From positions 186,001-250,000 of the forward strand of contig JAPJBO010000246.1 of assembly GCA_030068145.1 (NCBI GenBank): 64,000 nucleotides of DNA, in the 5' to 3' direction. Position numbers and translations under genes: made by a program. Positions 41,765-44,876 of this stretch are shown piece after piece (the first letter of the stretch is position 1; the number at the start of each line of letters is the position of its first letter). This DNA comes from Diplonema papillatum. Taxonomy: Eukaryota > Euglenozoa > Diplonemea > Diplonemida > Diplonemidae. Below the pieces are notes generated by a model. That model made no database searches and was not told the origin of the DNA. It saw nothing but the letters and a program-made list of their open reading frames with translations.

Positions 41765-41940
41765 CCGCCGTAGCAGTGCGAAGAGAAGTGAGGAGACCGG
41801 AAACTCCCCGGAGAGATGGTCTCTGCACTCTAACTCGTCTCTCTCTCTCTCTCTCTCTCTCTCTCTCTCTCTCTCTCTCTCTCTCTCTCTCTCTCTCTCT
41901 CTCTCTCTCTCTCTCTCTCTCTCTCTCTCTCTCTCTCTCT
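41765..41940 (+). repeat. Dispersed repeat plus long CT microsatellite (target of retroelement)
   Basis: 41765-41838 matches 16643-16716. It is followed by about 50 CT units ending at 41940, where the retroelement begins with CGGAAAAGGTCGCG. Confidence 0.9.
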
Positions 41941-44559
41941 CGGAAAAGGTCGCGTTGGCAGAAACGGTGAAGATGATAATTGTCACAGGGTTGGTGAAAT
42001 GAAAGCGAGAATGTGGGGTAAGCCCTGATTATTAGATTCACGGTTAAACGAAGCTAGCGCACAAGGTTTGCCTGATCTCGCACCTACTTTCCGATACCAA
42101 ATAGATGCTCTATTCAAACTCGGAAAAGGTCGCGTTGGCAGAAACGGTGAAGATGATAATTGTCACAGGGTTGGTGAAATGAAAGCGAGAATGTGGAATA
42201 AAAATCCCTGGACGTGAAACTCAAAGAGCTGAGATCCCGCTGCCTCCGGGTCTCGCAAAGAATAGCGCTATCAGGAGCGCAAATACAAAACTTCCGAGGT
42301 AAAGATCCTCATGCAACGCAGAACGGGGTCCGGGGCGGCTGGATGCCCTGCCTGTATGGGTCCCGCGTCCAGACGTCTGCCAGTTGCTCAGCAGTCGGGA
42401 CCCATACAGTCTCGAGGACGCACTGGTGTTCCTCCAAGACGTCGCGGACCTGGCACAGGATGAAGTTCCCGAGCTGGGTCTTCGACTTCCAGTTCCTCAA
42501 GCAGTTGACGGCGGGCAAGTTGTCGACGAAGATCCTGATCGTCGACAGCGGAGAGCGAGAAGCCGCGTACGCAATCGCGAACTTCGCCGCCGTCAGCTCA
42601 GCGAAGAAGATGTGCTGCGGGACATCCCTCCACGGGCCCCACATCGCCATGGAACCCACCAGCCAGGCCCATCCCTGCATGCTGGCGTCGGACCACGCCT
42701 CCACGAGGGTGTCCCGTTGCTTCGAGTCGAAAACGACCCACCGGTTGCCCGACAGACGCCGTCTCACTCCCGCAAGGAACGGAAAAACGTCGTCGCTCAC
42801 GCGGACCAGCGACTCCCAGCCCAGGGAACCGGTCAGGACTTGGTGCGCCAGGGTCCCCATCCACGCAAGCACCGGGCTCACTCTGCAGAGTGGCGTGCCC
42901 CACACCGTCCATGCCCAAATGGCGGTTCCGACGACCTTCCAAACGCCACGCAAAGTCATCTGCATCGAACCGACCGAGCAAAAGAGGAGGTGCGCCTTCC
43001 TCGCCCACTCCTGCTTCAGTCGGTACCTCTTCGCCGCGAGGTCAAACTCGACCCCCAAGACAACCGGCGTCGAGCTGGGCTCGAGGACGGACTTCTCGTC
43101 GTTGACCGTCATGCGCACCTGGCGGGCGCGTCGCAGGACTCGGTCGCGCACTGCGCGAAGCGCGTCCGGACAGTCACCGACGAGGGCCCAGTCGTCGTAC
43201 CAGACGACCCTGTCGTCCTTCGCAGGCTCCGTGACGACGAGTGCGGAGTCCTGCGCAATCACCGGCGAGTACGACCAGCCCATCGTCAGACGGCGCCACC
43301 GATACAGGGCCACGCCCCCGTCCGGCCTCTTCGTTCGAAGCCCGAAGAATGCCGACGTCGACCGTCCTACTGGGAATTGGAAAAAGTAGGACTTCAGGTC
43401 AACTACGACTGCGTGTGACTTCGACATCATCTTCTTGATGACCTCGTCGACACGCAAGAGGCTGAACTTCGGCGGGGGCTCCATCAGCTCGTTCAGCGGG
43501 CGGCCGTCGACGATGGCGCGCGAGTGCTGCTCGCCCTTCTCGACGGCGAATGCCGGCAGGACGCACTTCAGCGGCTGCGACCGAGGAACCCGCTCCACAA
43601 ACCCGACACCTTCCAGCGTCACCGCATGCCGGGCAAATGCGTCGCTCTTCCGACCCGGCAGGACAGGCACTTCCAACAACTTCCGACGGAAGGAGTGTCC
43701 GTCCGTCAGGAGGTCGAGCAGGCCGTGCAAGCGGGCCCCGGGGCCAGCTAGGCTCCGGAGGCCGCGGAGATCGATCGGCGGCACAGCCGTGACGTCGAGC
43801 GGCCTCGTCGATCTCGGGGCACCGATTCCCGGAGTGAGGCCCCTCGTCTCCGGTGGCAGGTAGCCGAGGGGAACTGCGGTCGGGGGGTCGTAGAAGTGGG
43901 GGTGGAGCCGCAGGAAAAGCTGCCTTCCCCTGAGCAGTCTCGACCTTCGCGACTTCAACCCCCTGACCTGCCGAGGCAAAAAGCCGGCGTCGGGCAAGGG
44001 TTTCTGTCGCGTTGGGAAACGACTGTCGCAGAAGGAGGGGCGAGCTGGGTGGTGCCCGGGAGAATTGGTCGGTGCGCTTCCCGGGTCTTCCTGCTTTCCG
44101 CCATCGTCAGCAGGCGACGAGAGCAGAGCAGTCGTCATGCTCCCGCCAGGTCCTTCAAGTTCGGAGTCGGCTGGGGGGGACCAGCCCCCAGGCGACCGTT
44201 CCAAGCCGGTCCTCAGCAGCGACCGGTCCTTCCTTCCTTTCCCGCAAGAGGAGGGGCGTGCATCGTCTCCCCGGGCTCGCACGGGTTCCACATGCGCCAC
44301 TCCCGCGTGGCCCCGTCCGCCGCTTCCTCAGCAGCCGCCCAGTCAGGATCCATCACCCGTCGACGCTTCAGCGCGGCCCGGCGCGTGCGGCTATCCTTGC
44401 GGATCGGCATTAATACTTGGGGAGAATGGAAATAAAATGAAAGCGAGAATGTGGGGTAAGCCCTGATTATTAGATTCACGGTTAAACGAAGCTAGCGCAC
44501 AAGGTTTGCCTGATCTCGCACCTACTTTCCGATACCAAATAGATGCTCTATTCAAACTC
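41941..44559 (-). mobile_element. RT-RNase H retroelement with split direct repeats, inserted in a CT microsatellite
   Basis: On the minus strand the order is A1 (44559-44435, 125 bp), RT-RNase H frame, B1 (42196-42121, 76 bp), A2 (42121-41997), B2 (42016-41941). A1 equals A2, and B1 equals B2, as far as I can read. A and B share a 20-bp overlap (AAATGAAAGCGAGAATGTGG). This A-ORF-B-A-B layout is the split direct repeat structure known from PAT and Ngaro members of the DIRS order. CT repeats abut both outer ends, and the internal B/A junction reads CAAACTCGGAAAAGG, as expected if a circle recombined at CTC with a CT-repeat target. Only about 110 bp separate the RNase H stop from B1, so there is no room for a tyrosine recombinase there. 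Confidence 0.88.
42309..44138 (-). CDS. Reverse transcriptase-RNase H of the split-repeat element
   Basis: The frame is open from 44300; the first ATG is 44138. A Pro/Arg-rich N-terminal region is followed by RT: finger CVLPAFAVEKGEQHSRAIVD, motif A AVVVDLKSYFFQFPVG, motif B LTMGWSYSP, motif C VVWYDDWALVGD, then LGVEFDLAAK. RNase H follows with EAWSDASMQGWAWL, AELTAAKFAIAYA, IFVDNLPAVNCL and VPTAEQLADVWTRDP, giving the D-E-D-D catalytic set. The enzyme would copy element RNA and degrade the template. The frame is intact and both RT aspartates are kept, so it could be active. No gag or recombinase is fused. A close, diverged copy is at 49283-51200. Confidence 0.88.
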   Translation of the reverse strand: MTTALLSSPADDGGKQEDPGSAPTNSPGHHPARPSFCDSRFPTRQKPLPDAGFLPRQVRGLKSRRSRLLRGRQLFLRLHPHFYDPPTAVPLGYLPPETRGLTPGIGAPRSTRPLDVTAVPPIDLRGLRSLAGPGARLHGLLDLLTDGHSFRRKLLEVPVLPGRKSDAFARHAVTLEGVGFVERVPRSQPLKCVLPAFAVEKGEQHSRAIVDGRPLNELMEPPPKFSLLRVDEVIKKMMSKSHAVVVDLKSYFFQFPVGRSTSAFFGLRTKRPDGGVALYRWRRLTMGWSYSPVIAQDSALVVTEPAKDDRVVWYDDWALVGDCPDALRAVRDRVLRRARQVRMTVNDEKSVLEPSSTPVVLGVEFDLAAKRYRLKQEWARKAHLLFCSVGSMQMTLRGVWKVVGTAIWAWTVWGTPLCRVSPVLAWMGTLAHQVLTGSLGWESLVRVSDDVFPFLAGVRRRLSGNRWVVFDSKQRDTLVEAWSDASMQGWAWLVGSMAMWGPWRDVPQHIFFAELTAAKFAIAYAASRSPLSTIRIFVDNLPAVNCLRNWKSKTQLGNFILCQVRDVLEEHQCVLETVWVPTAEQLADVWTRDPYRQGIQPPRTPFCVA

Positions 44560-44876
44560 TCTCTCTCTCTCTCTCTCTCTCTCTCGGGAAAGGTCAACGC
44601 GGTAGCGGTGACCACGAGAACACATACAGGTGGGTGGGGAGAGGCCCTGGGACTGCTAAGGCGTGACTAACCCCGTCCCTGTCCCTCCCAGGGAGCCACC
44701 CCGGAACTAGCCTAGCCCACCTGACGGTGGGGGCCCACCTGACGGTGGAGGCCCACACCCTTTGACTTGTTTTGATGTGTTCTCTCTCTCTCTCTCTCTC
44801 TCTCTCTCTCTCTCTCTCTCTCTCTCTCTCTCTCTCTCTCTCTCTCTCTCTCTCTCTCTCTCTCTCTCTCTCTCTC
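44560..44876 (+). repeat. CT microsatellites with a possible relic element end between them
   Basis: A CT run to 44584 is followed by CGGGAAAGGTCAACGCGGTA, which resembles the B end of the neighbouring element (CGGAAAAGGTCGCGTTGGCA). A doubled CCCACCTGACGGTGG motif lies at 44717-44753, and a second CT run (about 48 units) spans 44780-44876 up to the next retroelement. Confidence 0.7.

Follow-up and report, generated by a model that had tools for sequence, protein, structure and literature searches.

The 64,000-bp stretch of DNA analysed here (hereafter, the window) corresponds to positions 186001-250000 of contig C246 (JAPJBO010000246.1) in the 271-Mb assembly of Diplonema papillatum (G000). 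At 41942-44559 of the window, with its sense direction on the minus strand, lies a copy of a 2618-bp retroelement, here called fam1, the only open reading frame (ORF) of which encodes a reverse transcriptase (RT) and, probably, a ribonuclease H (RNase H), and which is embedded on both sides in CT microsatellite arrays; CT runs of at least 16 bp make up 262 of the 64000 bases of the window. Three other families are relevant to the argument, namely fam1b, the sister of fam1; fam3, a second RT-only family devoid of a tyrosine recombinase (YR); and famY, a neighbour that does bear a YR. In protein searches, the fam1 RT ORF and the famY YR ORF showed 99% matches to Diplonema papillatum proteins, and the only matches outside Diplonema, among those listed, were P0012 for the RT (E-value 2.4e-4, 27% identity) and P0016 for the YR (49% identity).

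Organization of fam1

Read in the sense direction, from 44559 down to 41942, fam1 has the order A1-ORF-B1-A2-B2, that is, the split-direct-repeat layout that the first-pass annotation of this DNA had proposed and that repeat comparison bears out. The A repeat is, as annotated, 125 bp long, and its copies A1 (44435-44559, the sense 5' end of the element) and A2 (41997-42121) are 100% identical. The B repeat, previously given as 76 bp, is exactly 75 bp long (78 bp when the preceding CTC is counted); its copy B1 (42122-42196) is identical to the outer copy B2 (41942-42016), which overlaps A2 by 20 nt (41997-42016). On the plus strand, accordingly, a CT array of 104 bp (41838-41941, from the sequence as read) is followed by a 75-bp block, X (the reverse complement of the B repeat), with the 125-bp block (the reverse complement of the A repeat), then by X again, the internal part, the second 125-bp block, and the right-hand CT array (44557-44585), the first CTC of which is common to the end of the element, so that 26 bp lie beyond it. 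The sequence GGAAAAGG begins at 41942, directly after the left array. The internal junction, CAAACTC|GGAAAAGG at 42121/42122, and the two outer junctions, CTCTC|GGAAAAGG and CAAACTC|TCTCT, are found in the sequence as they had been annotated. Split direct repeats, a trait of the PAT/Ngaro/VIPER type of elements, are present in fam1, in fam3 and in full copies of famY.

The single ORF (42309-44300, minus strand) comprises 663 codons from a putative GTG start. It matches the Pfam domain RVT_1 (E-value 2.7e-10, a match that clears the curated cut-off) and retroviral RT chains among the PDB sequences (from E 6e-5). The residues D538, E568, D593 and N594 are invariant in an alignment of fam1, three close relatives, fam3 and P0012, by which the ORF probably carries an RNase H as well; the Pfam signal for RNase H is weak, and is in famY. 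The Pfam scan, which took in this ORF but not the others listed for the stretch, yielded no match to a recombinase and no match to an endonuclease within it. Thus, the earlier view that the sole protein is an RT-RNase H, with no recombinase, stands, the RNase H part being probable.

The ORF contains neither a stop nor a gap in any of the 30 fetched loci (L001-L030, the best-scoring matches in the genome). Comparison of the window copy with ten other copies gives a ratio of nonsynonymous to synonymous substitution rates (dN/dS) of 0.10-0.13; the ratio is 0.138 at a dS of 0.52 against the complete fam1b ORF of locus L143 and 0.145 at a dS of 0.54 against the truncated fam1b copy of the window. 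The fam1b element of L143 has the same split-repeat layout without a YR as fam1, with a single RT ORF (674 open codons) as its only frame that reaches 200 codons; its ends are 98-100% identical to those of fam1, and its inside 85%. Of the 31 units that were read with the A2B2 block (30 of fam1 and one of fam1b), 29 span 2617-2740 bp. Taken together, these data identify fam1, which has probably been active recently, as a family under purifying selection, and, since fam1b shares the layout at a dS of 0.52 and selection is maintained, the lack of a YR is no recent accident. The kinship of the fam1 RT was judged from the Pfam and PDB matches and from its 25-30% identity to the RTs of fam3 and famY; the active-site box reads YDD in fam1, VDN in fam3 (L067) and IDN in famY.

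Landing sites

A motif made up of CTC and the 29 nt with which X begins has 302 matches in the genome, and its reversed control has none. The first 100 of these 302 matches define 73 sites, of which 60 were fetched (20 of the 25 chains and 40 of the 48 singles); 17 of the 60 turned out to be internal junctions, and the other 43 are outer left ends. A pyrimidine run of at least 8 nt abuts the junction in 38 of the 43 outer left ends, and in 34 it is pure CT. In the 31 full units (L001-L030 and L143), flanks were scored over 12 nt. The left flank is pure CT in 25 of the 31, a mixed pyrimidine tract in L013 and L028, TTC in L011 and TTC/GTC in L009, and in L015, with its divergent outer block, and L026, at a contig end, the left side was read as an internal junction. 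The right flank is pure CT in 21 of the 31, mixed pyrimidine in L011, L013 and L025, and TTC/GTC in L009; in L006, L007, L017, L019 and L029 its first 4 to 10 nt form a CT run, and in L026 there is no pyrimidine run.

Seven copies reside in TTC arrays or in a TTC/GTC tract (on contigs C803, C8, C177, C1493 and C801, and two on C242). Their junctions, at the ends that were read, are abrupt, TTC|GG and CTC|TTC, with no CT run left, and the two on C242, members of distinct sequence subtypes, are turned toward each other with a single TTC array between them. In relation to the CT array or TTC tract, fam1 lies in one orientation. Hence, the original notion of a CT microsatellite as the landing site holds for most copies, the runs being nearly all CT, and has to be widened to TTC tracts, with a few sites that lack a pyrimidine run of 8 nt (see below).

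As for the origin of the arrays, the one to the left of fam1 is preceded by a 76-bp host repeat (41763-41838, plus strand) that, by eye, resembles a short interspersed nuclear element (SINE) with a (CT)n tail at its 3' end. A 97% identical copy is located at 16642-16716 and is likewise followed by a CT run (together 16642-16747), there between imperfect direct repeats (CCTTGTTAGT[T/A]GTCCCCC), and similar sequence is seen ahead of CT arrays in, e.g., L002, L017, L058, L086, L093, L099, L102, L109, L139 and L140. Such SINE-like (CT)n tails may seed CT arrays.

An empty site

Insertions in L009 (C803) and in L074/L075 (C801) are found in copies of one dispersed host sequence, in different repeats thereof, so an occupied site could be compared with an empty one. 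When the two flanks of L009 are joined, they reproduce the unbroken flank of L075 exactly, over 18 bases on the left and 145 on the right; the left match stops at 18 bases where L075 reaches its own insertion. When the 165-nt joined flank (junction after base 101) was used as a query, all 40 places listed, that is, those scored out of 2001 candidates, matched at 96-99%, with equal query and target lengths in every row (109, 111 or 113). The exact flank match and the equal lengths imply that the L009 insertion neither gained nor lost a single target base. The absence of a target duplication, inferred in the first-pass annotation from the junctions, is thereby confirmed for this one insertion. 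The dinucleotide TC is common to both sides of it, which is consistent with a short shared core.

Other families in the same arrays

The CT array to the right of fam1 ends on a solo A2B2 block of fam3 (44586-44780, 195 bp, plus strand), for which 42 copies among the matches listed are 100% identical. Full-length fam3, as found in L067, consists of (CT)n, A1, an RT ORF of 671 codons, B1, A2 B2 and (CT)n; the RT ORF is the only one in L067, where no YR was found, and its hit to RVT_1 (E-value 0.008) falls short of the Pfam cut-off. Among 66 listed matches to this ORF at 97-100% identity, 52 are free of internal stops and 14 contain one TGA. Thus, fam1 is one of at least two families that lack a YR. 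Where they meet the CT array, both fam1 and fam3 show CTC|GGRAAAGGTC as their end; the ORF, however, points toward this end in fam1 and away from it in fam3. If insertion were primed at an RNA 3' end, each family would have to use the array strand opposite to that of the other, a requirement that joining of DNA does not impose; the opposite ORF sense at a shared end thus favours joining at the DNA level.

Beyond the solo block and a further CT array (44781-44877, from the scan for CT runs) lies a copy of famY (44878-49142, minus strand), which lacks an A2B2 block and comprises three ORFs. The RT-RH ORF (45146-48103) hits RVT_1 (E 2.3e-5) and RT_RNaseH (E 0.037), and the gag-like ORF (48012-49115), with a possible C2HC finger, hits zf-C2HC_2 (E 0.0039), all below the curated cut-offs. 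The third ORF (46807-48210) retains, together with P0016, the active-site residues R321, H405, H431 and Y440 of a tyrosine recombinase; the HxxR position, a motif named for YRs in PMC8547959, reads HAFK or HAMK in both proteins, with a lysine (K408) standing where the second catalytic arginine would be expected. Its predicted catalytic domain is similar to those of recombinases, the model being weak, and Pfam alone stays below significance. The conserved residues and the predicted fold support the assignment of this ORF as a tyrosine recombinase.

The ends of famY, GAACTTCTTACC... and ...TTCTTGATCC, both abut CT runs. In 18 of the 20 fetched loci the right end is visible, each time on pyrimidines, in runs 8-149 nt long (pure CT in 14), and in 13 of these 18 the run is adjoined by fam1, fam1b, fam3-like or famY sequence. 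The left end, visible in 13 of 16 loci, lies directly on a pyrimidine run in 12, L051 having a variant form. Two exact starts of the famY X block, 352 bp apart, in L055, L058, L060, L062 and L063 reveal the split-repeat layout of this family. Past famY, a truncated fam1b copy (49151-51229, minus strand) is 99.6% identical to positions 408-2486 of the full fam1b of L143; its 864-codon ORF (49283-51877) continues into other sequence. By eye, the region 51230-52400 resembles a long interspersed nuclear element (LINE).

How might fam1 integrate?

Split repeats, insertion without target duplication, a YR-bearing element that occupies the same arrays and the signs of DNA-level joining together best support the following reading, which we consider probable: fam1 is a split-repeat retroelement that lacks a YR, supplies its own RT-RH and is integrated by a YR which, we infer, acts in trans. 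Under this scenario, fam1 RNA would be copied into DNA by the RT-RH of fam1 itself, the A and B ends of this DNA would be joined at CTC|GG, and a YR provided by famY or by another element would recombine this CTC|GG junction with some TC-containing position in a pyrimidine array. Recombination at such junctions, or between the repeats, could then leave behind solo A2B2 blocks, multimers of A2B2 and copies devoid of it as by-products. At 275812-276383 of contig C122, four X starts follow one another 180 bp apart, an arrangement that suggests an A2B2 multimer. In L104, L119, L132 and L136, the X block is interrupted at the 20-nt motif common to A and B, or close to it, and the sequence resumes at varying internal positions; in L118 and L030 a break of this kind is followed by unmatched sequence. 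As judged from sequence, these copies look like products of template switching.

Several points weigh against this scenario. Circles, transcripts and trans events are all unobserved, and homologous recombination between the repeats would equally yield the solo, A2B2-less and multimeric forms. The sampling, too, leaned in its favour: the 30 loci with an undamaged ORF, being the best matches, favour intact copies, and the search pattern required CTC, so that CTC-less sites fall outside the sample. Five of the 43 outer left ends lack an 8-nt pyrimidine run (L122, L123, L126, L135 and L138); L138, with a 6-nt run in CT-rich surroundings, is borderline, and in the other four the element sequence looks diverged. 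The empty-site comparison concerns one insertion, inside a repetitive TTC/GTC tract. Finally, the ends of famY and fam1 are unlike each other, and the famY junction GAAGTTC-TTGATCC-GAACTTC consists of perfect 7-bp inverted repeats separated by 7 bp (reached in 2 of 2000 shuffles), whereas the junctions of fam1 (1321 of 2000) and fam3 (1388 of 2000) are unremarkable in this respect; therefore, fam1 and fam3 may not be substrates of the famY YR. Either the famY enzyme tolerates such junctions, or a different YR acts on them, or none does. So, of the suggestion that the DIRS-like neighbour serves as a helper, what is borne out is that this neighbour has a YR and uses the arrays that fam1 uses; a helper role for it has against it the palindromic junction, which fam1 and fam3 do not share.

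A special case of the trans scenario, which we regard as possible though rather unlikely, is that a different, unseen YR family with CTC|GGRAAAGGTC ends mobilises fam1 and fam3. It would account for the presence of this end in both families and not in famY, and P0016 exemplifies a related YR gene that exists elsewhere; however, no such element is found in the loci read, no genome-wide search with a recombinase profile having been made.

Somewhat more doubtful still is integration with no recombinase at all, whereby a read-through GA (or CT) tail would anneal to a broken array at another place and prime reverse transcription, the far end being joined by homology. Base pairing alone would then give both the array specificity and the fixed orientation, for fam1 as well as for fam3 with its opposite sense; such a route would also suit the failure to find a recombinase in either family and their junctions that lack the famY inverted repeat. 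Yet, the seven TTC-type copies with their abrupt junctions and no remaining CT run, and the two subtypes inside one TTC array on C242, are hard to derive from array-tail priming, which, furthermore, assigns no role to the split-repeat layout shared with famY and is at odds with the unchanged length of the empty site. A more general proposal, to which we likewise give little credence, is that retroelements which keep an RT under selection may long have managed with no integration enzyme of their own: joined ends or read-through tails would pair with pyrimidine arrays, such that microsatellites, shared by several families, would themselves serve as the integration machinery. A last possibility, that fam1 descends from a YR element by internal deletion and is now decaying and copied passively, would fit its smaller size relative to famY and its lack of gag and YR but is very improbable given the ORF intact in all 30 fetched loci, purifying selection that extends to the comparison with fam1b and its like layout in L143, the nearly constant size of full units and an RT about 25% identical to that of famY, so that fam1 is no deletion of a longer copy, as the first-pass annotation had allowed.

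If a YR in trans is indeed involved, its action should be directly testable, given the abundance of near-identical copies, the many paralogous empty sites and a neighbour that bears a YR and occupies these arrays; gene replacement has been reported in Diplonema papillatum (PMC10161547). In fam1 and fam3, copying and integration look uncoupled, the selection on RT having been demonstrated for fam1.

Comparison with known systems

TOC1 of Chlamydomonas is a split-repeat element that is not known to encode a recombinase of its own, nor an RT. In lacking a recombinase, TOC1 and fam1 would be alike, but fam1 keeps an RT under selection. With the PAT/Ngaro/VIPER type, fam1 shares the split repeats and the absence of a target duplication (in L009) but not the possession of a YR, which famY does encode. 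The Ngaro layout is A1-ORFs-B1A2B2, with an RT-RH (PMC8547959, PMC3266345); the Cafeteria Ngaro elements are described as having gag-like, RT-RH and YR ORFs, of which ORF1 seems to guide the choice of site (PMC8547959). Thus, PAT-like and Ngaro elements resemble fam1 in the split direct repeats and RT-RH, and differ from it in encoding a YR, and no targeting of microsatellites by them is described in the relevant passages of these papers and of PMC12477816. VIPER, from trypanosomatids, in turn has split repeats and encodes gag-like, YR and RT/RH proteins, and SIRE corresponds to its A2B2 region (PMC6681497). Split direct repeats and a solo A2B2 form are, then, features that this pair, as described, has in common with fam1 and fam3, in which, unlike VIPER, only an RT ORF was found. 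SIRE, a known non-autonomous relative, is a short A2B2 block; fam1 and fam3 are, instead, abundant lineages with their own RT and no recombinase.

The microsatellite target itself has a parallel in non-LTR (long terminal repeat) retrotransposons, which are described as encoding an endonuclease (PMC4640811); fam1 differs from these by its split repeats, the lack of a duplication in one case, and an ORF with no Pfam endonuclease match. Non-LTR retrotransposons in general insert by target priming and usually with a duplication. In the paper on the Diplonema genome, TATE-like ORFs are referred to only in general terms, at least in the passages concerned, and the terms DIRS, microsatellite and tyrosine recombinase are absent from the main text (PMC10161547). 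In the open-access literature, we found no account of RT-bearing split-repeat families that lack a YR and occupy microsatellites.

Overall, the nearest precedent for fam1 comes from the kinetoplastids, the sister group of the diplonemid lineage, in the form of the TATE elements (telomere-associated transposable elements) of trypanosomatids. TATE sits at a precise position inside the telomeric hexamer repeat (PMC2696322, PMC6681497) and has split direct repeats, A1..B1-A2-B2 (PMC12278014); with regard to target duplication, flanking TT was reported in PMC2696322 and no duplication according to PMC12278014. As far as these descriptions go, TATE and fam1 are alike in being retroelements with split direct repeats that insert precisely within a tandem repeat; unlike fam1, in which no YR was found and which occupies CT arrays and TTC tracts, TATE has its own YR and targets telomeric GGGTTA. 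By analogy with this targeting of telomere repeats in kinetoplastids, the CT arrays of Diplonema may act as safe havens for the elements that share them.

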